Origin: a virus
Direction: 5' to 3' (one strand)
Length of the DNA stretch: 25,086 nucleotides
IMG/VR virus record: IMGVR_UViG_3300033144_002995
Location: 1-25,086 of that record
Positions 172 through 16,064 of this stretch are shown here, in pieces. How positions within the stretch are numbered: position 1 is the stretch's first letter; the number at the start of each line of letters is the position of its first letter. The position numbers and the translations under genes were made by a program. The notes below the pieces were generated by a model, which worked only from the letters and a program-made list of their open reading frames with translations, did no database searches and was not told the origin of the DNA.

Positions 172-450
172 TTAAGCTGCCTCTTTAAGCTCACTATCTT
201 CAGTAGTTGCTTTTACTACTTCAATTACCGCATCAGTTTCTCTGATTACTTTAGGTATATTGTTAGTTGCAGTGTAACTTTTGTACTTTTCAAAGCAAGC
301 TAGTTTGTCAAGTGTTGGCTTCATTAACTCATACGCTTTATCGTGGTCATAAGTTATTACATCGCCTTTTTTGTTAGTAAATTCTATTACTACTCCGCTT
401 CCGATTAGTGATTGTCTAATCATGAATCTTTTAGATTTTAGTGTTTCCAT
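172..450 (-). CDS. Hypothetical small early protein, paralogue of the 1882-2103 product
   Basis: A 92-residue protein of unknown function. Residues 1-70 align with the 73-residue product of 1882-2103: both have KRF.I..SLIG near residue 10, then FTNKKG, TYDHD, ACF..Y and a closing N.IP. The two are therefore tandem paralogues. This copy has an extra C-terminal tail of about 20 acidic residues. I see no membrane segment or catalytic motif; the alternating strands and short length suggest a small soluble beta-rich protein. The gene has its own copy of the repeated promoter (490-521), about 40 bases upstream of the ATG, overlapping the stop of the gene before it. The start is the first ATG and has no Shine-Dalgarno sequence. 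Confidence 0.75.
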   Translation of the reverse strand: METLKSKRFMIRQSLIGSGVVIEFTNKKGDVITYDHDKAYELMKPTLDKLACFEKYKSYTATNNIPKVIRETDAVIEVVKATTEDSELKEAA

Positions 451-2653: not shown

Positions 2654-5047
2654 ATGGCAATAATATATTCCTACCCAAAAAAGAATTCGCCAACCGTAGA
2701 AGATTTACTCGTAATAAGTGATGTAGAAAGTACAGATCCTAAGTTTCAAACTAAACAGATAACTATACAAAGCGTTATAGATTTATTACCTGTTACGTTT
2801 GCAGAAAACGCTTGGTCAACTTTAAAGGTAACTAATTCATTAGTACCTCAAGACGATATAGTAGCTGTTGGTATAGATCAAACTTGGACAGTAGCTCCAG
2901 CAGATAGTTCGATAGAGTTAACATCTGATGCAGCTACTAGTACTTTATTTATTAGAGCTATTGGTGATGGTTTTGATAACATGGCCAATGCTAACTTAGT
3001 ATTTAATGATAACCATACAGCAGATTTACAAGATGCAACAGGTGCTCCTAATTGGAATTGGAACCTAACATGCGGTCCTGAAAGCGTAATGTGGTTTAGT
3101 AAAGATTTAGTAACAGTTGGAAACATAACTGGAATTACTAATCCATTATCAACTTATGAGGGAGGATGGTATATACCAATTAATGGGCAATTAGGTGGAA
3201 GAGATAATGTTTACTTAGGTGGTGGTGCAGAAGTTGTCGGTCTTCCAGCTGACGAAGAATGGAGACCTTTTATTAATAGTAACCATGAGTATATACAAAA
3301 ATCTACTGCTGTAGGCATAGGGGCTTTAGCTTTTTCTGGAGCCACTAATTACTTTGGCTTAGTAACCAGTGCTGCTATAGCGTTACAAGGAGCTGGTTTT
3401 GTTGATGGAGCATATACTAATGTGGCTACTGTAGGTGGTACTGGTACTGGATTAACTGTAGATTTTAATGTATTAGGGGGTGTTGTTCAACCGCCAGTAA
3501 CTATCAACCAGGCAGGTTCAGGGTATACAAATGGAGAGATTGTAGATATTCCAGGAGGAACACTAGATGCGCAAATAACTATTACAGCATCTACCGATGG
3601 TAATAATATTGAAAACACAGCTGTAGGACATACGTCACAGTACAACTTTGGACAAGCAGTTAGCACACCTGGTACAGATCAATTTGGTCAAAACACTAGT
3701 TTAGGATATAGATCTTTATTTAGCAATACTGGTGGGAGTGGTGTTGATACAGGATCTTTTAATATAGCAATTGGTGGTAGAGCTTTAGAAGCTTTAGATT
3801 TTGGAGATCGAAATACTGCTGTAGGACATAATGTAGCTTTAGACTTAACAACTGGTTATAGCAACGTTATTATTGGAATGGAAGCTGGTGTTGGTCAAGC
3901 AACTGGAGCATTATCATTACAAACTGGAGCTAATAACGTATTAATTGGACATCACGCTGATACTGCTAACTTTGATAATAACATCGTAATAGGAGAATCT
4001 AGTTACGTCATTCCTACTTTTGGAGGATTGTTTAATGGTGGTAGTATTAATATTGGTGTAAATTCCGGTGTTCAAGGAACTAATAGTATTAATATTGGAA
4101 ATAACTTTAACCCTCTTAGCAGTGCTGCATTGCAAGAAGGAGAATATATAATAGTAGGTAATGATTGTATATATGATGTAGGTACTTTTGGAGTAGGAGA
4201 AAATAGTACATTTAGTACACATGTAGGAAATAGCTCAAGTATTTATGGATGGTCTTGTGACACATTTGGTCACGGCATAACATTAGGAAACGCTTTTGGA
4301 GCTAATGATATACAAGACAATGTTATTATAGGTAATAATAGTGACTGGAACGCTTCTAAGTCCTCTCAATATAATGTGGGTGTTGGTGTTTTTGGTACTC
4401 AATTACCGGCCCCGGGAGAATTAGGAGTAGGTGCTGTAGGTTTAGGATGGAATTATCTTCTTGAATATGATGGACAATTTGCAGTATATCTAGGTCAAGG
4501 TCAAAAAGATATAGATCTACAAGGATTTGCTGGAGGATTAGGGGTTGCAAGAGATTCTAATATTAACTTAACTGGTAATTTAACTATAACTGGTAACGGT
4601 AGTCTAGTCACTCCAAACACTTTGTCATTAGATTATGAAAACACCAAGTTTGATGGGCAAACTGAATTGAAACGTGAACCAGTTACCGCTGCGCCTATAA
4701 CACAGTTAGATTTTAATAACGGTGATATGGTAACTATTGATTTAGCTAATCAAGCTGCTGTTACTTTAGCATGGCCACAAAATTTGAAAAATGGAACTTA
4801 TATTATTAAGTTTATTCAAGGAGCTGTAACACCTACTGTATTAACTCTTCAAAACGGACCTATTGTTGGAGCGTTTACCCAACAATGGAAATGGACTAGT
4901 CCAGGTGCTCCAGCTCCAATATTAACTGCTGTAACTGGAGCTGTAGATATATTAACTATTGTAGCTGTAGAAACGTATGACTTTGCTGTAGGAACAGATA
5001 CCAATGCGTTTAATTGCTACGTGAACATACTTAAAGACTTTGTATAA
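2654..5047 (+). CDS. Tail fibre / receptor-binding protein with beta-helical repeats
   Basis: A 797-residue structural protein. Residues 1-45 (MAIIYSYP...PTVEDLLVISDV...) look like the short virion-attachment module of phage tail proteins and resemble the start of 12738-13565. Around residue 287 is a GSGYTNGEIVDIPGG strand module of the kind also seen in 11997-12590. About residues 315-600 hold many short repeats with N.[AV][VI]G cores (NTAVGH, NVIIGM, NVLIGH, NIVIGE, INIGNN, NVIIGN), as in trimeric beta-helices of YadA-head type. The last 120 residues form a beta-rich C-terminal domain (NGTYIIKFIQG) of a sort common at the ends of such proteins. I infer a trimeric fibre that contacts the host surface. 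It is the first rightward gene and its stop overlaps the next start by one base. Confidence 0.8.
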   Translation: MAIIYSYPKKNSPTVEDLLVISDVESTDPKFQTKQITIQSVIDLLPVTFAENAWSTLKVTNSLVPQDDIVAVGIDQTWTVAPADSSIELTSDAATSTLFIRAIGDGFDNMANANLVFNDNHTADLQDATGAPNWNWNLTCGPESVMWFSKDLVTVGNITGITNPLSTYEGGWYIPINGQLGGRDNVYLGGGAEVVGLPADEEWRPFINSNHEYIQKSTAVGIGALAFSGATNYFGLVTSAAIALQGAGFVDGAYTNVATVGGTGTGLTVDFNVLGGVVQPPVTINQAGSGYTNGEIVDIPGGTLDAQITITASTDGNNIENTAVGHTSQYNFGQAVSTPGTDQFGQNTSLGYRSLFSNTGGSGVDTGSFNIAIGGRALEALDFGDRNTAVGHNVALDLTTGYSNVIIGMEAGVGQATGALSLQTGANNVLIGHHADTANFDNNIVIGESSYVIPTFGGLFNGGSINIGVNSGVQGTNSINIGNNFNPLSSAALQEGEYIIVGNDCIYDVGTFGVGENSTFSTHVGNSSSIYGWSCDTFGHGITLGNAFGANDIQDNVIIGNNSDWNASKSSQYNVGVGVFGTQLPAPGELGVGAVGLGWNYLLEYDGQFAVYLGQGQKDIDLQGFAGGLGVARDSNINLTGNLTITGNGSLVTPNTLSLDYENTKFDGQTELKREPVTAAPITQLDFNNGDMVTIDLANQAAVTLAWPQNLKNGTYIIKFIQGAVTPTVLTLQNGPIVGAFTQQWKWTSPGAPAPILTAVTGAVDILTIVAVETYDFAVGTDTNAFNCYVNILKDFV

Positions 5048-5430
5048 TGAAAGGTAAAGAAGAACAAACAAATGATCCTAGAAAGGAATTTCCAAATGGA
5101 GTAGATGCTCCAATGGACGACAGAATAGAATCACCTATAAAGAAAAAAAGCCTAACAGCATCTCCTAAAATTAAAAGTGTTGCTACATCTAAAGGAGTAA
5201 AAGAGTATAAATCTAAAAAAGTAGGTGATATTAAGAATAGAGTAGTTGACAACAGTAACATTGTTAACCAACTAAAAAAGGAATTAGAAATGAAAAGTCC
5301 TAATCCTGACTCTATTAGAAGATTAAGAAAACACATTGAACCTATTTCTAAAGTTACATTAGAAAATGACGAATTGGTGGAGTTAATAAACCTTGCAAAA
5401 AATAAAGAAAATGGCTTACCAACAGAATAA
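5047..5430 (+). CDS. Hypothetical lysine-rich protein with Ser-Pro motif
   Basis: A 127-residue hydrophilic protein with no known family. It starts within the stop of the fibre gene (TAATG), so translation is probably coupled. It contains ESPIKKKS at residues 28-35 and ASPKIKS shortly after, a short motif that recurs in small proteins of this region. A basic middle is followed by a helical C-terminus (ELEMKSPNPDSIRRLRKHI). It could be a small virion-associated or DNA-contacting protein; no direct evidence. Confidence 0.65.
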   Translation: MKGKEEQTNDPRKEFPNGVDAPMDDRIESPIKKKSLTASPKIKSVATSKGVKEYKSKKVGDIKNRVVDNSNIVNQLKKELEMKSPNPDSIRRLRKHIEPISKVTLENDELVELINLAKNKENGLPTE

Positions 5431-5665
5431 TTATCCATTCAAAAAAGTAGAATGGCCTAGAAAAAGGAAGAAAAAGAAAAATAAAAACCAATACACAACA
5501 AAAAGTAAAGGCCCGGGTGGTCACAAAAAGAAAAAGAAAAAAGGAGTAAATCCAGAAGCTATAGGACTTGCGACAGTTCTTGGTGGTTTAGGCGCTGCTA
5601 TAGGACTTACAACTTACAAAGGAGGACTAGATAGTCGAACTCCTGGCAAATGGAAGAATCCATAA
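5411..5665 (+). CDS. Hypothetical basic protein with hydrophobic C-terminal segment
   Basis: 84 residues using the ATG at 5411 (MAYQQNNYPFKKVEW); an in-frame ATG at 5393 would give six more residues. The start overlaps the preceding gene by 20 bases. The first 50 residues are extremely lysine- and arginine-rich (KRKKKKNKN, HKKKKKKG). Then a glycine-rich hydrophobic stretch (AIGLATVLGGLGAAIGL, about residues 51-67) could insert in a membrane. The combination of a poly-basic domain and one apolar helix suggests a nucleic-acid- or membrane-binding internal virion protein, or a small lysis accessory. No family recognised. Confidence 0.6.
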   Translation: MAYQQNNYPFKKVEWPRKRKKKKNKNQYTTKSKGPGGHKKKKKKGVNPEAIGLATVLGGLGAAIGLTTYKGGLDSRTPGKWKNP

Positions 5666-5683
5666 ACTAAAAAACAACAAACC

Positions 5684-5983
5684 ATGACATTTTTATACCG
5701 TACTAGAACGTGGAATAGTGCACCACAACACCCAGATCAAGAGATCATTAACCTTTGGAAGCATGTTTCAGAAAAGAAAAACTGGAGAATAGTGCAATTA
5801 CCCAACGGATTTTACCAAACAGAGTATAAAAGCCCAGAAGATGAAGAATTATGGGTTGATGTAACGCGCAGAGAGACCTTAAGTGGCGCAGAAAGTGCGA
5901 TAGATGGTTCAATAGAGCATTATACTAAGAAATTAGAGTTCTTGGATGGACCTAAAGTAGTTAAAACGTTTGATAAAGAGTAA
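5684..5983 (+). CDS. Hypothetical 99-residue phage protein
   Basis: No recognised family. The protein is soluble, with several tryptophans (TWNSAPQHPDQEIINLWKHV, NWRIVQLPNGFYQTEYKSP) that predict a compact alpha/beta fold. An RRETLSGAESAIDGSIEHY helix resembles the conserved segment of small single-domain phage hypotheticals. There are no catalytic motifs or membrane spans. It lies 18 bases after the previous gene and 22 before the chaperonin gene. Confidence 0.65.
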   Translation: MTFLYRTRTWNSAPQHPDQEIINLWKHVSEKKNWRIVQLPNGFYQTEYKSPEDEELWVDVTRRETLSGAESAIDGSIEHYTKKLEFLDGPKVVKTFDKE

Positions 5984-6005
5984 AATATAAATTAAATTTA
6001 ATTAA

Positions 6006-7547
6006 ATGCAATCAGAAACGATAGTAAAGCACCTTAATTTTGGTGAAGATGCAAAAAATAAGATATTTTCAGGCATCGAACAACTTACACGGGCTGTTGG
6101 TTCCACTTTAGGAGCCAATGGTCAATGTGTTATCTTAGAAAACACTGTAGGAGACCCACAAATTACAAAAGATGGGGTAACAGTAGCCGATTCTATTATA
6201 CTTTTAGATCCAGTGGAAAACATGGGGGCTAAATTACTAAAAGAAGCAGCTCGTAAAACAGTAAAAGAAGCTGGTGATGGCACTACGACTGCCACGGTTT
6301 TAGCGCACGCCATATTACAAGAGGCATATAAGGCGATAAAATCGGAATCTCCGCGAAATATTAAAGAAGGCATTAATTTGGCTGTAGAAAAAGTAGTAAA
6401 ATACTTAGAAACACAAACCGCTCCGGTGGAGGGAAGTGTTATAGAACAAGTAGCTACCATATCAGCCAATAACGATTTAAAACTAGGTGGTATTATTGGA
6501 GAAGCTTTTAGAGCTGTAGATGAAACAGGTATAGTAATGATGGAAACTCATGAGGAACCTAATACTATAGTAGAAAAGATCGAAGGAATTCAATATGATA
6601 GAGGTTTAATAAACATGCACTTTGTAAATAATAAAGAAAAAGGCATTTCAGAACTTCACAACCCCTTAGTACTAATAATAGAAAACCATATCCAAAGCAT
6701 AAGGCAAATTCAAAGTGTATTGGAATATGTTATTAAAAACAACAAGTCATTATTGTTAATAGCAGATGTAGAACCTCAAGTATTATCTGCTTTAGCTATG
6801 AACAAGGTAAAAGGAAATATTAAAGTAAATGTTATTGAAGCTCCTGTTTATGGAGTAAACAAGAAAGATACTTTAGATGATCTAGCCTTATTGACCGGTG
6901 CTACTGTAATTAATGAAGATTTAGGAGATGATTTAGATTTAATAGACATTTCCATGTTAGGTACTTGTTTAAAAAGTACAACCAATAGAACCGAAACTAT
7001 ACTGCAACTTGAAAAAATACCGGAAGAAGTAAACGACTTAGTTTCTACTCTGCAAAAGCAAATGAATGAAACTTCTAATCCAGCAATTAAAGTAAAAATT
7101 GAAAAAAGATTAGCTAGATTATTGGCAAAGGTTGCAATTGTCAAAGTTGGAGCTAATTCAGAAGTGGAATTAAAAGAAAAAAAAGATAGAGTAGAAGATG
7201 CAATATGTGCTACTAAAGCCGCGATTAAAGAAGGAATAGTACCAGGTGGTGGTATTGCTTTAATAAATGCTTCTGAAAATATAAAACCTAAATGCAAAGG
7301 GGAAGAAGTATTACTTAAAGCTATACGAGCTCCTTTTGAAACTATATTAAGTAATGCAGGAATTGAAGAAATTCCCATAATGAAAAAAGGAGAAGGATTG
7401 GATGTGGTTACAGGTAAAAAAGTAAGTATGGTAAAGTCCGGAATAATAGATCCTTTACTTGTTACTAAAAGCGCTTTAAAAAACGCGGCTTCTGTAGCTA
7501 CTACTATTTTATCTACTGATTGTGTAATTAACAATGTAAGAGCATGA
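6006..7547 (+). CDS. groL: Phage-encoded GroEL-like chaperonin (Cpn60)
   Basis: 513 residues, aligning end to end with bacterial GroEL (548 in E. coli). The ATP-site motifs are present: ITKDGV (Asp56), GDGTTTATVLA (Asp91), VEDA (Asp398), PGGGIAL (414-416) and GIIDP (Asp482), so ATP hydrolysis should be intact. The usual TLGPKG loop reads TLGANG (34-39), losing the near-invariant Pro and Lys. The apical substrate/GroES groove is changed: RGYLSPYF in E. coli corresponds to RGLINMHF. The C-terminal Gly-Gly-Met tail is absent; the protein ends at NNVRA. It should form a folding chamber for virion proteins or for host proteins the phage needs. The next gene is a GroES-like protein overlapping by 4 bases (ATGA), the reverse of the bacterial groES-groEL order. 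Confidence 0.95.
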   Translation: MQSETIVKHLNFGEDAKNKIFSGIEQLTRAVGSTLGANGQCVILENTVGDPQITKDGVTVADSIILLDPVENMGAKLLKEAARKTVKEAGDGTTTATVLAHAILQEAYKAIKSESPRNIKEGINLAVEKVVKYLETQTAPVEGSVIEQVATISANNDLKLGGIIGEAFRAVDETGIVMMETHEEPNTIVEKIEGIQYDRGLINMHFVNNKEKGISELHNPLVLIIENHIQSIRQIQSVLEYVIKNNKSLLLIADVEPQVLSALAMNKVKGNIKVNVIEAPVYGVNKKDTLDDLALLTGATVINEDLGDDLDLIDISMLGTCLKSTTNRTETILQLEKIPEEVNDLVSTLQKQMNETSNPAIKVKIEKRLARLLAKVAIVKVGANSEVELKEKKDRVEDAICATKAAIKEGIVPGGGIALINASENIKPKCKGEEVLLKAIRAPFETILSNAGIEEIPIMKKGEGLDVVTGKKVSMVKSGIIDPLLVTKSALKNAASVATTILSTDCVINNVRA

Positions 7548-7804
7548 AAGCAATTGGTAAGTATATAATCATAACAGAACCTACTAAGAAATCTACTTCT
7601 ACCAAAGGTGGTTTACTTTTAAACGAAGAAAGCAGAGATGATATTAGATATAGGGAAGGTGTAATAGTTATGCCAGGAACTGAAGTAAAAGGAATTGAAA
7701 TTGGTAATACTATATATTTTGATAGACATGCTGGTTTTGGAATAGAAATAAATAATAACACTTACAAGGTCATTAAAGAAACAGATGTTGTAGTAATACT
7801 TTAA
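7544..7804 (+). CDS. groS: Phage-encoded GroES-like co-chaperonin (Cpn10)
   Basis: 86 residues (E. coli GroES has 97). It begins like Cpn10 (KYIIITEPT), then has a polar mobile-loop region (residues 14-33) with the hydrophobic GroEL-contact tripeptide in GGLLL (22-26; GGIVL in E. coli). It continues with REGVIVMPG, an IGNTIYFD strand matching the Cpn10 VGD.V.F core, and an ending ETDVVVIL that matches ESDILAI. The roof hairpin is shortened. Its start overlaps the GroEL stop by 4 bases, so the two are translated together. It should cap the phage GroEL ring, or possibly the host ring. Confidence 0.9.
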   Translation: MKAIGKYIIITEPTKKSTSTKGGLLLNEESRDDIRYREGVIVMPGTEVKGIEIGNTIYFDRHAGFGIEINNNTYKVIKETDVVVIL

Positions 7805-7807
7805 AAT

Positions 7808-8176
7808 ATGGAAGATCAATTTAAAGGAATAAGTAAGTTTGGTGGAGCAGCAAAATTAGGTATGCCAAAAGATCATAAAAACATGATGAGTGCTTTACAT
7901 AAAAGAGGAATGTTACAAAGTCCATTATTAAACGAAGGAGAAATGAGTTTAATAGGTAACCAAAGTTTAGATCCTAATGTGATTAATGCTGAATCATTAA
8001 GTACAGCAGGTCCTGTACAAGGGAGTCCTGATCCTATGCAGAAAACAGGAGGAACTTGGGAAAACCCAACACCTATGGTAGACGATAGCTTGGGTTACTT
8101 AACAAAATCCATGGACGATTATATGGAAAATATAACTCCAAAAGACACCGAGGAAAACGAGGATGAGGAAAATTGA
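7808..8176 (+). CDS. Hypothetical protein with Ser-Pro motif, acidic C-terminus
   Basis: 122 residues, not recognised. The N-terminal third is basic and methionine-rich (KLGMPKDHKNMMSALHKRGM), followed by LQSPLLNEG with the recurring Ser-Pro-hydrophobic motif (Ser38-Pro39). The middle is low-complexity (SPDPMQKTGGTWENPTP) and the end strongly acidic (DTEENEDEEN). It appears largely disordered. It starts 3 bases after groES and overlaps the next gene by 14 bases. Confidence 0.65.
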   Translation: MEDQFKGISKFGGAAKLGMPKDHKNMMSALHKRGMLQSPLLNEGEMSLIGNQSLDPNVINAESLSTAGPVQGSPDPMQKTGGTWENPTPMVDDSLGYLTKSMDDYMENITPKDTEENEDEEN

Positions 8177-8618
8177 TTCTGGAGATTTAAAAGAATTAAA
8201 TTTATTTAAACATTATAGGATAATAAGAAAATGGGTGAGTAAAACTTATCATATAAAAGAAGCTGATTTAGAATTGTTATTTTATTTGGAAGGAATAGGT
8301 TTATTTACCAAACAAGACTTTAAAGATGGTATTCATTCTTATAGTTGGGACAACAGAAGATGGAATAGACTATTAAAAGAAGATTGGATAAAAGTTTTTA
8401 GAACTAGAAATCGTACTACACAAAAATACAATATATATAAACTATCATTTAAAGCTAAACAACTTATTGCTAGAATATATAGAATTATATTAGGAGAAGA
8501 AGATATACCTGAAACTACTAGATCAAATAAAGTAATGAACAAGGATACATATTCTAATACGGTTTTAGCAACTTCCATTATTAACCTGAACAAAGATAAA
8601 AATAGATATGGCTTTTAA
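8163..8618 (+). CDS. Putative winged-helix-like DNA-binding protein
   Basis: 151 residues. The layout is helix (HYRIIRKWVSKTYHI), then ADLELLFYLEGIGLFTKQDF, then a basic segment with SWDNRRWNRLLKEDW and a beta wing-like turn (IKVFRTRNRTTQKYNIYKLS), then a last helix (FKAKQLIARIYRIIL). This order is what MarR-type winged helices show, and the protein is very basic. I infer DNA binding, perhaps as a late regulator or a virion DNA-associated protein. It overlaps both neighbours by 11-14 bases. Confidence 0.6.
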   Translation: MRKIDSGDLKELNLFKHYRIIRKWVSKTYHIKEADLELLFYLEGIGLFTKQDFKDGIHSYSWDNRRWNRLLKEDWIKVFRTRNRTTQKYNIYKLSFKAKQLIARIYRIILGEEDIPETTRSNKVMNKDTYSNTVLATSIINLNKDKNRYGF

Positions 8619-9204
8619 AATGAAAGGATATCCCGCACATAAAAGCGGAGTACAACCAAAAAGAAGTGATTCTCCAGTTAAAGCAATGTCTGAATCTGGT
8701 CAAGCAACTTTGACGGGAGTAGGAATGGGTGCGGCATCTGGAGCCGCAGCAGGAGCATCGTTTGGTCCTTGGGGTGCAGCGATTGGAGCTGTTATAGGTG
8801 GAGTAGCTGGTGGTATTACCGCCGATCAACAATGGAAGAAGGAACAAGAAATGGCCCGTCAAGAAGAAGCATTAGCAAGAAGAGTAAAGATTCAAGAAGA
8901 GATGACAGGTAGAAGAGAGAGACAGCAATTAGCTTTAAGTGACATGGGAAGAACTTCTGTTAAACTACCAGGAAAAACAGAAAATATAAATCCAGATGGA
9001 ACAGTATCTAATAGTACTACTGTACAATCAAAACCAATAAATTTAGGTTCTTTATACTCTCCATCGCAAAATTCTAAAAACATAGCTAAAAAAGGTTACA
9101 TAAAAAAAACACAAGGAGAGAAAATAACAGAGTTCAACAGTAATTCTATTAACATAGCTAATGAACCTACTGGAACTAACGTTTCTATTAACAAAAGAAA
9201 ATAA
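8608..9204 (+). CDS. Glycine-zipper membrane protein, possible internal virion protein
   Basis: 198 residues. It starts MAFKMKGYP; the alternative ATG at 8620 would remove four residues. DSPVKAM (Ser22-Pro23) carries the recurring Ser-Pro motif. Residues 36-70 are a glycine/alanine zipper (GAASGAAAGASFGPWGAAIG, then AVIGGVAGG), which could span or permeabilise a membrane. Next comes a charged coiled coil (KEQEMARQEEALARRVKIQE), then a polar Ser/Thr/Asn-rich tail. Such proteins are often ejected with DNA or sit in the tail of podoviruses, but this is an inference from composition. Confidence 0.65.
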   Translation: MAFKMKGYPAHKSGVQPKRSDSPVKAMSESGQATLTGVGMGAASGAAAGASFGPWGAAIGAVIGGVAGGITADQQWKKEQEMARQEEALARRVKIQEEMTGRRERQQLALSDMGRTSVKLPGKTENINPDGTVSNSTTVQSKPINLGSLYSPSQNSKNIAKKGYIKKTQGEKITEFNSNSINIANEPTGTNVSINKRK

Positions 9205-9209
9205 TTATT

Positions 9210-9368
9210 ATGCCAAGTAACGGACAAAAACAAAAACCTGCTGGAGTTAAAAAACCTATGCCAGGTCCTAGCAATGGAACAAAGACAATGATTTGTGGAA
9301 AGATTATGAAAATTAAACCACAAGAATATACTGCTTACCCTAACGCTGTAATGCAGGCAAACAAATAA
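9210..9368 (+). CDS. Hypothetical 52-residue basic protein
   Basis: ATG at 9210, stop TAA at 9366-9368. The product starts MPSNGQKQKPAGVKKPMPGP and ends YTAYPNAVMQANK. It is proline- and lysine-rich with one Cys (MICGKIMKIKPQEY). It fills a gap exactly between two other genes, 5 bases after one stop and 2 bases before the next start, which is the main argument for translation. No family recognised. Confidence 0.6.
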   Translation: MPSNGQKQKPAGVKKPMPGPSNGTKTMICGKIMKIKPQEYTAYPNAVMQANK

Positions 9369-9370
9369 CA

Positions 9371-9526
9371 ATGGAAGTAGCTGACTCAATAAAACTATAT
9401 GCTGTGAATACGGGAGCATTTATGGCAAGCTGTTGTGATTGGTTAGAGCCAACATTAAAAATATTATTATTGGGTGCTACTTTAGGGTACACTTTACATA
9501 AGTGGTATTTATTAAAAAAGAAATAA
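9371..9526 (+). CDS. Small single-span membrane protein, candidate holin or lysis accessory
   Basis: 51 residues, ATG at 9371 and TAA at 9524-9526. It has an N-terminal helix (MEVADSIKLYAVNTGAFMAS), then Cys-Cys-Asp-Trp, then one membrane helix (about 29-44, LKILLLGATLGYTLHKW) with a positively charged end (LLKKK) that should stay cytoplasmic. It is close to the amidase gene, and similar tiny proteins occur near lysis genes in flavobacterial phages as I recall them. A pinholin- or holin-like role is possible; the larger candidate holin is at 11525-11995. Confidence 0.65.
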   Translation: MEVADSIKLYAVNTGAFMASCCDWLEPTLKILLLGATLGYTLHKWYLLKKK

Positions 9527-9528
9527 AA

Positions 9529-9741
9529 ATGGGAAATTTTAGTAAAAGTTTTTGTAGTAAGTCTCCTTTCAAAAAAGAAGAGCCAACAGAAGAAAAAGAA
9601 AAAAAAGGAGTTAGTATCAATGATGGTGTTGAAAAATTTACTCCAGAAATGGCTAGAAAGTGGTTAGATCGTCATGATAAAGGAGAGATTAAATTAAATA
9701 GAATTGAATTAGCGAAAGCTAATGAAAGAGCTAACGAATGA
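9529..9741 (+). CDS. Hypothetical charged protein with N-terminal KSPFKK motif
   Basis: 70 residues from the ATG at 9529 (MGNFSKSFCSKSPFKKEEP), 2 bases after the preceding stop; an upstream in-frame ATG at 9502 lies inside that gene and is not favoured. Residues 11-16 carry the clearest form of the recurring Ser-Pro motif (Ser12-Pro13-Phe). A lysine/glutamate-rich linker follows, then a helical end (FTPEMARKWLDRHDKGEIKL) that could be a small folded domain. It overlaps the amidase start by 4 bases. Function unknown. Confidence 0.65.
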   Translation: MGNFSKSFCSKSPFKKEEPTEEKEKKGVSINDGVEKFTPEMARKWLDRHDKGEIKLNRIELAKANERANE

Positions 9742-10151
9742 GAAAGATAAATAAACTTATTGTTCATTGTTCCGCTACTCGCGAAGGACAAGATGTAACT
9801 GTTGAGACCATTAGAAAGTGGCATGTTGAAGGTCGAGGTTGGTCAGATATAGGTTATCATTTCTATATAGATATCTTTGGTAAAATACATAAAGGTAGAG
9901 ATATAGCAAAAATGGGGGCTCATTGTAAAGGCTACAATAGAAATTCAATAGGAATATGTTATGCGGGTGGTGTAGAAGAAGATGGAAAAACACCAGCTGA
10001 TACTCGAACATTTGAACAAGAGGAAGCTTTATTATGTGTACTTAGAACTTTAAAAGCTATGTATCCAGAAGCTGTTATTCACTCCCATAGAGACTTTGCA
10101 AAAAAAGCATGTCCATCTTTTGATGCAACAGAAGAATATAAAAATTTATAA
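9738..10151 (+). CDS. N-acetylmuramoyl-L-alanine amidase (T7-lysozyme type endolysin)
   Basis: 137 residues, a single-domain zinc amidase of the Amidase_2/PGRP family that cuts the bond between muramic acid and L-alanine in peptidoglycan at lysis. The motifs are IVHCSAT (zinc His10), IGYHFYID (catalytic Tyr40), SIGICYAGG (about 70-78), SHRD (zinc His117) and KKACPSFD (Lys123, zinc Cys125), the arrangement of T7 lysozyme. There is no cell-wall-binding domain or signal peptide, so release to the periplasm needs a holin. T7 lysozyme also inhibits T7 RNA polymerase; there is no sign of that partner here. The ATG overlaps the preceding stop (ATGA). Confidence 0.95.
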   Translation: MRKINKLIVHCSATREGQDVTVETIRKWHVEGRGWSDIGYHFYIDIFGKIHKGRDIAKMGAHCKGYNRNSIGICYAGGVEEDGKTPADTRTFEQEEALLCVLRTLKAMYPEAVIHSHRDFAKKACPSFDATEEYKNL

Positions 10152-10152
10152 T

Positions 10153-10437
10153 ATGAGAAACGTTAATACACCGTTCGGATCAGTATCTAGTCCTTTCATG
10201 AAAAAAGACATGGAAGAGATTAGAGAGAAACCTGGAAGTTCTAATGCTGGTAAATATCCAAACGTAAAAAAATCAGATTTCTGTGGCCCAGCAGGGGGTG
10301 CAGCAGAAGGTACATATCCAGTCAACACATTAGCTAGAGCAAAGTCAGCTCTTAAACTAGCACACAACGCTCCTAACCCAGCAGGGATTAAGAAATGTGT
10401 ATATAGAAAATATCCTGAATTAAAACCTAAAAAATAA
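10153..10437 (+). CDS. Small protein with DUF6582-like module and Ser-Pro motif
   Basis: 94 residues from the ATG at 10153, one base after the amidase stop; the longer frame from 10096 lies inside the amidase and is rejected. Residues 10-17 hold SVSSPFMK (Ser13-Pro14-Phe). The second half has the pattern GTYPVNTLARAKSALKLAH, a linker with proline, and CVYRKYPEL. I associate this YP[IV]...A..AL........V..KYP pattern with the DUF6582-type module, usually found appended to larger phage proteins. Two cysteines (FCGP, KKCVY) are present. Its role is unknown. Confidence 0.65.
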   Translation: MRNVNTPFGSVSSPFMKKDMEEIREKPGSSNAGKYPNVKKSDFCGPAGGAAEGTYPVNTLARAKSALKLAHNAPNPAGIKKCVYRKYPELKPKK

Positions 10438-10598
10438 TGATAGATAAAATGAAAAAAGTAGTATCATCTCCACTGTTTGCTTGTGCTTGCGCAGTAGCAA
10501 TGGGATTAATATTTCTTATGGAAAAACATCCGTTATATGCAGGTGTAGCGTTTGGATTTGCAGGATGCAAATTTTTAGACGCTTTTAGAACAGTTTAA
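10437..10598 (+). CDS. Small membrane protein with Ser-Pro motif
   Basis: 53 residues, ATG at 10437 overlapping the previous stop by one base (TAATG), stop TAA at 10596-10598. It has a basic N-terminus, then VVSSPLF (Ser11-Pro12-Leu) leading straight into a hydrophobic stretch (ACACAVAMGLIFLM) and a second apolar segment (LYAGVAFGFAGCKFL). It may have two membrane helices. Three cysteines lie in or near the spans. A lysis accessory or virion membrane role is possible. Confidence 0.6.
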   Translation: MIDKMKKVVSSPLFACACAVAMGLIFLMEKHPLYAGVAFGFAGCKFLDAFRTV

Positions 10599-10608
10599 AA
10601 CAAATACA

Positions 10609-10767
10609 ATGAAATCAAATAAAGCAGAAGGACTTGGAGATACTATCGAACAAATAACTAAAGTCACCGGCATTAAAAAAATGGTGGAAACAGTTAAGAA
10701 AGGTAAATGCACTCCATGCGAAGAACGAAGAAAAAAATTAAATGAAAAATATCCTTACAAAAAATAA
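10609..10767 (+). CDS. Small CxxC protein, conserved-looking phage hypothetical
   Basis: 52 residues, ATG at 10609, TAA at 10765-10767. The pattern GLGDTIEQITKVTGIKKMVE followed by GKCTPCEERRKKLNEKYPY matches a small protein type I recall from many unrelated tailed phages, with a helical N-terminal half and a CxxC in a basic C-terminal half. The CxxC could bind zinc if it dimerises. Function unknown. Confidence 0.7.
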   Translation: MKSNKAEGLGDTIEQITKVTGIKKMVETVKKGKCTPCEERRKKLNEKYPYKK

Positions 10768-10772
10768 CGGTT

Positions 10773-11111
10773 ATGGGCTTAATGAAGAAAATGTTTAGTA
10801 AAAAGTTTAAGTTAAATTCTCCTTATCATATTGATAATACTCCGGTATATCACGTGCCTGAAGAAGAAGGAACTTTAGGTAGAGCATTGGATACAGAAGT
10901 TGTAACTGTTAACGAAAATGTAACAGATATAGATCAAGAAAAAGAAATTGTATCACATGAGAAAGTTCATGTAGATCAAATGAAGAGAGGCGATCTTTCA
11001 TACACAGATAAACATATAATTTGGAAAGGAAAGAAATACTCTAGAAATTATAACAAAAAGTCTCCTTGGGAAAAAGAAGCTTATTCCAAAGAGATAAAAG
11101 CTAAAAAGTAA
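10773..11111 (+). CDS. Putative minimal zinc metallopeptidase (HExxH) with Ser-Pro motif
   Basis: 112 residues. SHEKVHVDQM gives a canonical HExxH (His62-Glu63-x-x-His66). PWEKEAY near residue 98 offers Glu100 or Glu102 as the third zinc ligand, in the manner of gluzincin-like peptidases. GDLSYTDKHIIWKGKKY between them should form the active-site sheet. KLNSPYHID (Ser16-Pro17-Tyr) is an N-terminal copy of the recurring motif, and KSPW recurs at 96-99. No signal peptide is seen. If active, it could process neighbouring small proteins or scaffold, but activity is not shown by sequence alone. An in-frame ATG three codons in is an alternative start. Confidence 0.6.
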   Translation: MGLMKKMFSKKFKLNSPYHIDNTPVYHVPEEEGTLGRALDTEVVTVNENVTDIDQEKEIVSHEKVHVDQMKRGDLSYTDKHIIWKGKKYSRNYNKKSPWEKEAYSKEIKAKK

Positions 11112-11114
11112 ATT

Positions 11115-11525
11115 ATGGGTTTATCAAGTAAACAACACAAAAAAGATCTAATGGAAGATAAGAGTCCAGTAGATTCAAGTAGAAGTGCTACTAAAAAAAC
11201 TGGATCTCCAGCTAGAAAAGCTAATTATGACAAAGATATGGCGGAAGAAAGAATTAAAATTAGACACGCTAAAGAAGATATCTATGAAGATGACAAGAAA
11301 AAAAGAGCATCTGAAAAAAGAGGTCCGGTAAAAAAAGATGGTTCTATGAAAGGTGATCAATCAGCTACACATAAGGATTATGCTAATTACAAAGGTACTG
11401 ACAAAGGATATCACGGTCATACTGGTGCTTCTCACGGAGATCAATCAGCTACACATAGAGATTATGAAGAGCATGGTCACATGAGTTCAGTTCATAAAGT
11501 GTTGAAGCATTCTCATAGAATGTAA
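11115..11525 (+). CDS. Hypothetical His-rich repetitive protein with Ser-Pro motifs
   Basis: 136 residues, hydrophilic and probably disordered. KSPVDSS (17-18) and GSPARK (31-32) carry the recurring motif. The charged middle is helical (DMAEERIKIRHAKEDIYEDD). The C-terminal third repeats GDQSATH[KR]DY twice and is rich in histidine (HGHTGASHG, EEHGHMSSVHKVLKHSHRM), which could bind metal. Its stop overlaps the holin start by one base (TAATG). No known family. Confidence 0.65.
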   Translation: MGLSSKQHKKDLMEDKSPVDSSRSATKKTGSPARKANYDKDMAEERIKIRHAKEDIYEDDKKKRASEKRGPVKKDGSMKGDQSATHKDYANYKGTDKGYHGHTGASHGDQSATHRDYEEHGHMSSVHKVLKHSHRM

Positions 11526-15221: not shown

Positions 15222-15438
15222 TATAAGAAAAATTAGCATTGGATCAGATTATAAAAATGATGCTATGCATTACTCTGTAGGACAGGAAGTATATGGAGGA
15301 CATAAAATATGCGATATAATAGGAGATGAGAAAGATGGGGAATATATGATTTATATTGAAAAAGATAAAGAAGTATTACCTTGGAAAAAATTCAACTCTC
15401 ATATGGCTATTGCCATTGAATACGATTTACAATATTAA
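15214..15438 (+). CDS. Hypothetical 74-residue phage protein
   Basis: Unknown function. A compact beta-rich protein (RKISIGSDYKNDAMHYSVGQ, GEYMIYIEKDKEVLPW, HMAIAIEYDL). It resembles small proteins encoded beside terminase genes in marine flavobacterial phages, from memory only. It has no catalytic motif or membrane span. Its first ATG overlaps the preceding gene by 8 bases, and its stop overlaps the next start by one base (TAATG), so it is translated with its neighbours. Confidence 0.7.
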   Translation: MSNIRKISIGSDYKNDAMHYSVGQEVYGGHKICDIIGDEKDGEYMIYIEKDKEVLPWKKFNSHMAIAIEYDLQY

Positions 15439-16064
15439 TGCAAAGTTTATATAATTTTATTATTACTCCTAAAAACGATCGATATAATAACACTATAAAA
15501 GTAAGTGATAAAACACTGATAGTAAACACTAAAATAGAAACTTACCAAAGTGTTAGTAAAGAAGCAATCGTAAAAGAAGTTCCTAAACTTTATAAAGGAC
15601 CAATAAAAAAGGGAGATTCAATAATAGTTCATCATAATATTTTTAGAAAATTTTATGACATCAAGGGAAGAATAAAAAATAGTTCTTCTTACTTTAAAGA
15701 AAATCTTTTTATTTGTGATCTTCATCAAATATATCTTTATAAATCAAATAATAACTGTTCCAAATGTACTAACACTTGGAAGTCTAATTTAGATTATTGT
15801 TTTGTATCTCCTGTAAAAGATACAGAAATTCTAACCAATAATAAAGAAAAAGAGTTGATGGGAATAATAAAATATGTTAATCCAAGATTAAAAGAAAAAG
15901 GAATTAAAGTTGGAGATTTAATAACGTTTACTCCCAATTCAGAATTTGAATTTATGTTTGAAGGAAAACGTTTATATTGTATGAAATCAAATGATATTGC
16001 TATAACTTATGGAAACGAAAGAAACGAAAAAGAGTATAATCCAAGCTGGGCGTATTGCAGTTGA
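15438..16064 (+). CDS. Tandem GroES-like (Cpn10-fold) protein
   Basis: 208 residues with two Cpn10-like halves. Half 1 (about 1-103): NFIITPK start, a polar loop with TLIVN (26-30) in the place of the GroES mobile-loop tripeptide, IKKGDSIIVHHNIF (56-69) and DLHQIYLYK (94-102). Half 2 (about 118-191): CFVSPVK (121-127), MGIIKY (141-146), IKVGDLITF (156-164, against VKVGDIVIF in E. coli GroES) and CMKSNDIAI (181-189, against IMSESDILAI). Between them is a CxxC (NNCSKC) and a third nearby Cys that may bind zinc. It could be a second co-chaperonin for the GroEL at 6006-7547 or a virion protein using the same fold. It overlaps the next gene by 56 bases. Confidence 0.65.
   Translation: MQSLYNFIITPKNDRYNNTIKVSDKTLIVNTKIETYQSVSKEAIVKEVPKLYKGPIKKGDSIIVHHNIFRKFYDIKGRIKNSSSYFKENLFICDLHQIYLYKSNNNCSKCTNTWKSNLDYCFVSPVKDTEILTNNKEKELMGIIKYVNPRLKEKGIKVGDLITFTPNSEFEFMFEGKRLYCMKSNDIAITYGNERNEKEYNPSWAYCS

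Follow-up and report, generated by a model that had tools for sequence, protein, structure and literature searches.

Why should eight small, otherwise unrelated proteins encoded in one block of a phage genome carry the same Ser-Pro-hydrophobic motif near their N-termini? The window, meaning the whole stretch of 25,086 nucleotides analysed here, is an IMG/VR virus fragment (IMGVR_UViG_3300033144_002995) in which the terminase, portal, and capsid genes are found at 16-24 kb. The block in question (5047-11525) is flanked by a fibre-like gene and structural genes, and contains GroEL/GroES, an amidase, an HExxH protein, and numerous small unannotated genes. The window TerL shares 62% identity with the Caudoviricetes ctfjg026 protein and 45% with the Elemovirus one, and the portal has a more remote likeness to those of Pervagoviridae (phi38:1) and Pachyviridae (phi46:3). 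Because every isolated relative with a named host infects Flavobacteriia, the host of the window phage is likely a member of the Bacteroidota. The closest relative, and the sole close syntenic one, is the locus L165, which was used for orthologue comparison.

Some further small genes of the window were noted. A small family with the pattern KRFxIRKSLIGxNxxITFxNKK...YDHD (window 172-450 and 1882-2103, both minus strand; relative G006, 63706-65143) is present in at least two divergent copies per genome. Two GroES-related proteins, one beside GroEL (7544-7804) and a longer one just upstream of the terminase (15438-16064), share one cluster, and the elemovirus gene at the latter position is annotated as co-chaperonin GroES. 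The small protein 10609-10767, with a GLGDTI-TK-TGI pattern and a cysteine pair, has an untagged counterpart in ctfjg026 (L082, 24587-24757).

The initial annotation listed eight proteins with the Ser-Pro-hydrophobic motif, and recheck of the translations places every motif at the residue given. The features concerned are the following:

5131..5139, plus strand: SPI, Ser29 (ESPIKKK), present in the 127-aa protein 5047-5430
5432..5440, plus strand: YPF, a degenerate tag in MAYQQNNYPFKK, the N-terminus of the basic protein 5411-5665 (84 aa), by likeness to the relatives' leader MAYTQNNSPFAKK
7919..7927, plus strand: SPL, Ser38 (QSPLL), present in protein 7808-8176, a gene lacking in L165
8614..8634, plus strand: leader FKMKGYP of the glycine-zipper protein 8608-9204, with a related 19-residue leader in two L165 proteins
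8671..8679, plus strand: SPV, Ser22 (DSPVKA), in protein 8608-9204, with KSPV in the L165 orthologue 7938
9562..9570, plus strand: SPF, Ser12 (KSPFKK), present in protein 9529-9741, without L165 orthologue
10189..10197, plus strand: SPF, Ser13 (SSPFMK), in protein 10153-10437, with NSPFSKK in the L165 orthologue 9565 (matched part 75% identical)
10467..10475, plus strand: SPL, Ser11 (SSPLFA), in the 53-aa predicted membrane protein 10437-10598, a doubtful member, with NHPL (Ser lost) in L165
10773..11111, plus strand: minimal metallopeptidase-like protein with an HExxH motif, present in most of the tagged clade
10818..10826, plus strand: SPY, Ser16 (NSPYHI), in the HExxH protein 10773-11111, with SSPY in the L165 orthologue 10001
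11163..11171, plus strand: SPV, Ser17 (KSPVDS), in protein 11115-11525, a weak member, absent from the L165 orthologue
11205..11213, plus strand: SPA, Ser31 (GSPARK), in protein 11115-11525, outside the enriched pattern

The proposed N-terminal clustering holds: all 8 SP[FYVILM] matches among the 17 block proteins fall in residues 1-45. When the first 45 residues of each block protein were permuted in 2000 trials, the mean number of matching proteins was 0.69 and the maximum 4, against 8 of 17 observed. The motif is not equally frequent in the remaining proteome, since none of the 22 other window proteins has an SP-hydrophobic match, and the window amidase, GroEL/GroES, terminase, portal, and capsid proteins carry no N-terminal tag. 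This window statistic is post hoc, the pattern having been picked from the window proteins themselves. The HExxH protein, mentioned initially as a further nearby carrier, does bear the motif, but it is no additional carrier: it is the product of 10773 (HEKVH) and already among the eight.

Positional conservation in L165 extends to part of the list. The genes at 8608, 10153, and 10773 keep the motif, which supports their putative tags, whereas the orthologues of 10437 and 11115 are without it; these two members are therefore doubtful, and their tags may be chance occurrences. The protein at 9529 has the full KSPFKK form of the tag, and the tags of 5047 and 7808 are unconfirmed. An orthologue of protein 5047-5430 was sought and none was found; the L165 protein 1236-1904 has an analogous DSPIGK near its start. 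The leader of 5411, missing from the initial list, looks like that of the relatives with Tyr for Ser. In the HExxH-selected loci of relatives, SPA shows no enrichment (2.2 observed and 1.6 expected).

Because the pattern had been chosen from window proteins, the test was moved to relatives, in two partly overlapping locus sets that both include the window: one selected by the HExxH gene (80 viral and 7 MAG contigs) and one by TerL. Genes came from a simple greedy caller and families are single-linkage clusters, so that family counts are approximate; expected values are from composition-preserving shuffles. Near the HExxH gene, 28.1 of 122 late-gene families are tagged versus 5.1±1.9 expected (z 12, HExxH-selected loci); among late small genes upstream of TerL, the count is 22.0 of 139 families versus 5.4±2.3 (z 7, TerL-selected loci). 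In the TerL-selected loci, opposite-strand and distant genes show no enrichment (7.5 families, 10.7 expected), and residues 46-89 of late small proteins yield 3.8 families only. Mid-protein and C-terminal segments have SP-hydrophobic at chance, and PS-hydrophobic, hydrophobic-PS, S-x-hydrophobic, and TP-hydrophobic are at chance level in both sets, as is SP before a non-hydrophobic residue. The early genes of the long relatives G006 and G004 have no SP-hydrophobic in residues 1-45, whereas their late small genes are repeatedly positive. The shared SP-hydrophobic tag is thus confirmed as real, and it extends far beyond the window. Among 120 motif instances there are 67 different 9-mers; because the Ser and Pro codons are mixed, selection is at the protein level, and a nucleotide-level element is ruled out.

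On the TerL tree, tags are spread across the clade and absent from the three outgroups placed; 12 of the 58 rows are without tags, these three included, and numerous late small proteins of the clade are untagged. The analysis turned up no cultured phage of the tagged clade. When 50,697 phage records were queried with a synthetic tag of 27 residues, nothing matched, although a query of this length is insensitive. Nothing relevant to DUF5872 and no description of an N-terminal phage tag of this kind was found in the literature searched (open-licence PMC text).

In 34 families the consensus is SP[LF][NK]xK, at residues 3-38. Leu or Phe follows Pro in 27 of the 34, the next residue is mostly N or K, and K is the commonest residue three places past the hydrophobic one. 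Longer leaders recur on unrelated proteins: those of the MAFKMKGSPL type precede DUF5872 parts and the HExxH enzyme as well as several unknown, unrelated families, and MAYxQxNSPF leaders precede DUF6321 and the WPSAYASG part. Two L165 proteins have 19 leader residues in common at 79% identity and no other likeness that could be found. The pattern MxFKMKx[ST]P[LF] matched 54 IMG/VR stretches. Nineteen leader-pattern loci lack nearby core genes; 13 of them are in records with a TerL of the clade (68-74% identity), and the other 6 are in records of 5-25 kb with no TerL of the clade. The DUF6321-containing family exists in both states, tagged in L068 (MAFTQPSSPFLKKK) and untagged in L053 (MARKKAPSRKKS); its conservation is 0.79 at S and 0.97 at P versus 0.50 at other N-terminal columns. 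Small proteins in L074 (4434-4781) and L076 (330-617) consist mostly of repeated KSPMKM/KSPAKM units, a tandem tag.

With moderate confidence, the motif is probably an N-terminal docking tag, portable between proteins, through which small late accessory proteins are recruited into the virion. The core, Ser-Pro-[Phe/Leu], set in a brief leader of the type MAFKMKGSPL or MAYxQxNSPFxK, would be bound by a single common virion or prohead component (candidates are scaffold, capsid, and portal), and this binding would bring the proteins into the particle. Late-gene specificity, unrelated payloads, and the presence of tagged and untagged members in one family support docking, and the tandem copies in L074 (4434-4781) fit avidity binding. 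From these observations we infer binding as the mode of action, the virion as the destination, and a head protein as the partner. Two of the three initial readings, virion-targeting tag and docking site, agree with the late-gene specificity, the payloads, and the homologues in S-CREM2 described below; the third, a cleavage site, is unsupported.

The payload domains point toward the particle. Pfam DUF5872 matches two different small proteins, its first part in one (weakly, below the curated cut-off) and its second in the other; the two parts are adjacent genes, both tagged, in L263, L290, L295, L296, and L297, a tally in which some of the loci had been picked by their leader pattern. In cyanophage Syn9, the single 443-residue protein gp114 combines the WPSAYASG part with DUF6321; it has an additional DUF5872-like WF stretch, recognised by eye, and its gene is one removed from the small terminase gene. 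S-CREM2 gp137 holds DUF6321 (E 9e-14) and gp160 the WPSAYASG part (E 1e-20); both were detected by mass spectrometry in purified virions, with few peptides (4 and 7, respectively; PMC10665884 Table 3). The S-CREM2 carriers are larger untagged proteins of a distant myovirus, and only their domains are homologous to tagged payloads. These payload domains are the same as in the tagged clade (up to 85% identity), but in Syn9 and S-CREM2 they lie within long untagged polypeptides, whereas in the tagged clade each is a small protein of its own, in many cases tagged. Domains that are virion-associated elsewhere within longer proteins thus often have their own tag here, and we therefore infer that the tag does the joining. 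Because the DUF5872 parts are separately tagged here and fused in Syn9 gp114, the tag may stand in for covalent linkage between domains.

Short peptides that load cargo into protein shells are known from other systems. In encapsulins, cargo-loading peptides are short linear motifs that tether varied cargos to a capsid-like shell; they typically lie at the C-terminus and have other sequences. The internal proteins of T-even phages are diverse, and the capsid-targeting sequence (CTS) is their only conserved part (review, PMC3012670). The T4 CTS (IPI-III) and the SP tag are alike as short N-terminal peptides on otherwise diverse small phage proteins, and the SP tag would act in a similar way; no relatedness is claimed. 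The SP tag differs in its SP-hydrophobic core, its position anywhere from residue 3 to 38, and its possible tandem arrangement; no cleavage site or prohead protease is seen with it, and its virion destination is proposed. In P1 DarB, likewise an N-terminal peptide signal, the first 30 residues suffice to carry a reporter into the capsid (PMC9024508); that signal is described for one large protein, whereas the SP tag is on dozens of unrelated small ones. T4 internal proteins and P1 DarB are precedents for N-terminal capsid-loading peptides.

An unlikely alternative to virion docking places the partner outside the particle, in a host protein, in a phage complex for replication or at the membrane, or in an assembly of the lysis stage. 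The tag is defined solely as a common N-terminal motif of late proteins, and one possible carrier, 10437, is a predicted membrane protein, both of which would suit such a partner; however, payload domains are virion-detected in S-CREM2, and the lysis amidase and chaperonins have no tag. Docking on GroEL is rejected: the GroEL-encoding outgroups ctfjg026 and Elemovirus have no real tags, the sole ctfjg026 match being the MKSPFYF start of a GroES-like family.

The HExxH protein raises the question of processing. HExxH and PWExEAY are invariant in 57 aligned homologues, as are H62, E63, H66, and E100, the last a predicted metal ligand. The AF2 model has a pLDDT of 85, and the nearest PDB folds by Foldseek are abylysin, PprI/IrrE, CapP, and selecase, all weak (best abylysin, E 0.18, prob 0.91). 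Minigluzincins and ImmA/IrrE-like metallopeptidases resemble the 10773 protein in having ~100 residues and an HExxH helix with a conserved downstream Glu, but no fold match is better than E 0.18, and peptidase activity of 10773 is predicted. Against phage records the protein matched two jumbo-phage records only. The N-terminus of the family is usually a relaxed tag, FK[LMI] and then [SAP]P[YF], in which Pro is conserved, Tyr or Phe is usually next, and Ser varies with Ala or Pro; the strict leader MAFKMKPSPF is found in L260 and L300, and the protein may itself be cargo. In G002 (C1:8809-10227), L006 (4793-6202), L026 (6258-7466), and G003 (C1:6692-7873), HExxH has no gene to itself: the domain forms the N-terminal portion of proteins of 390-470 residues. 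Three contigs with the HExxH gene, L245, L246, and L249, were binned, probably in error, into MAGs that bear the labels Woesearchaeota, Aliivibrio, and Alphaproteobacteria.

In T4, a prohead protease processes internal proteins during head maturation. It is distinctly improbable that the SP motif is a comparable processing site, at which a protease, perhaps the co-encoded HExxH enzyme, would cut the leader during head maturation. T4 IPI is proteolytically matured (PMC3012670), the HExxH and PWExEA motifs of the enzyme family are invariant, and the gene is present at 54 of 57 tagged versus 5 of 15 other loci, a biased count with half of the loci fetched with HExxH. Against cutting, the 34-family comparison shows no conserved cleavage residues downstream of the motif, doubled or tandem tags are frequent and poorly explained as single cut sites, the HExxH protein bears a form of the leader itself, and on the TerL tree tags and HExxH gene are both spread over the clade. 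No Pfam protease was found in five head-region proteins of the relative G006.

Very little credence can be given to DNA minor-groove binding through SPXX/SPKK-like turns, by which small basic proteins would be packed on the genome: many carriers are rich in lysine, and past the motif Lys or Asn is frequent, but SP before a non-hydrophobic residue does not exceed chance (7.3 versus 11.7 expected, HExxH-selected loci), and the prevalence of Leu/Phe is the opposite of the SPKK preference for a polar or basic residue after Ser-Pro. Chance, or a compositional artefact of short disordered Ser/Lys-rich N-termini, is hardly credible for a motif that, although short and chosen after inspection of the window, is enriched in relatives at z 7 to 12 against shuffles and reversed-order and positional controls, by which this origin is rejected.

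Within the virion-docking reading, it is possible rather than probable that SP[LF] tags are read throughout this marine podophage clade by one hub, located in the head or portal, and that further accessory proteins enter the particle through gain of a 10-residue leader, in place of the gene fusions that carry the same domains in other phages. A receptor scan by family co-occurrence found no receptor; the HExxH gene alone stood out, and it was rejected as a receptor signal, its co-occurrence being explained by locus selection and clade membership. If virion docking is true, a label of ~10 residues would predict which small proteins of a widespread uncultured marine phage group enter the particle, and would offer a way into the function of DUF5872, DUF6321, and other families without annotation. 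It would also be a small, swappable capsid-loading tag, through which a phage would accrete cargo proteins by motif gain instead of fusion.
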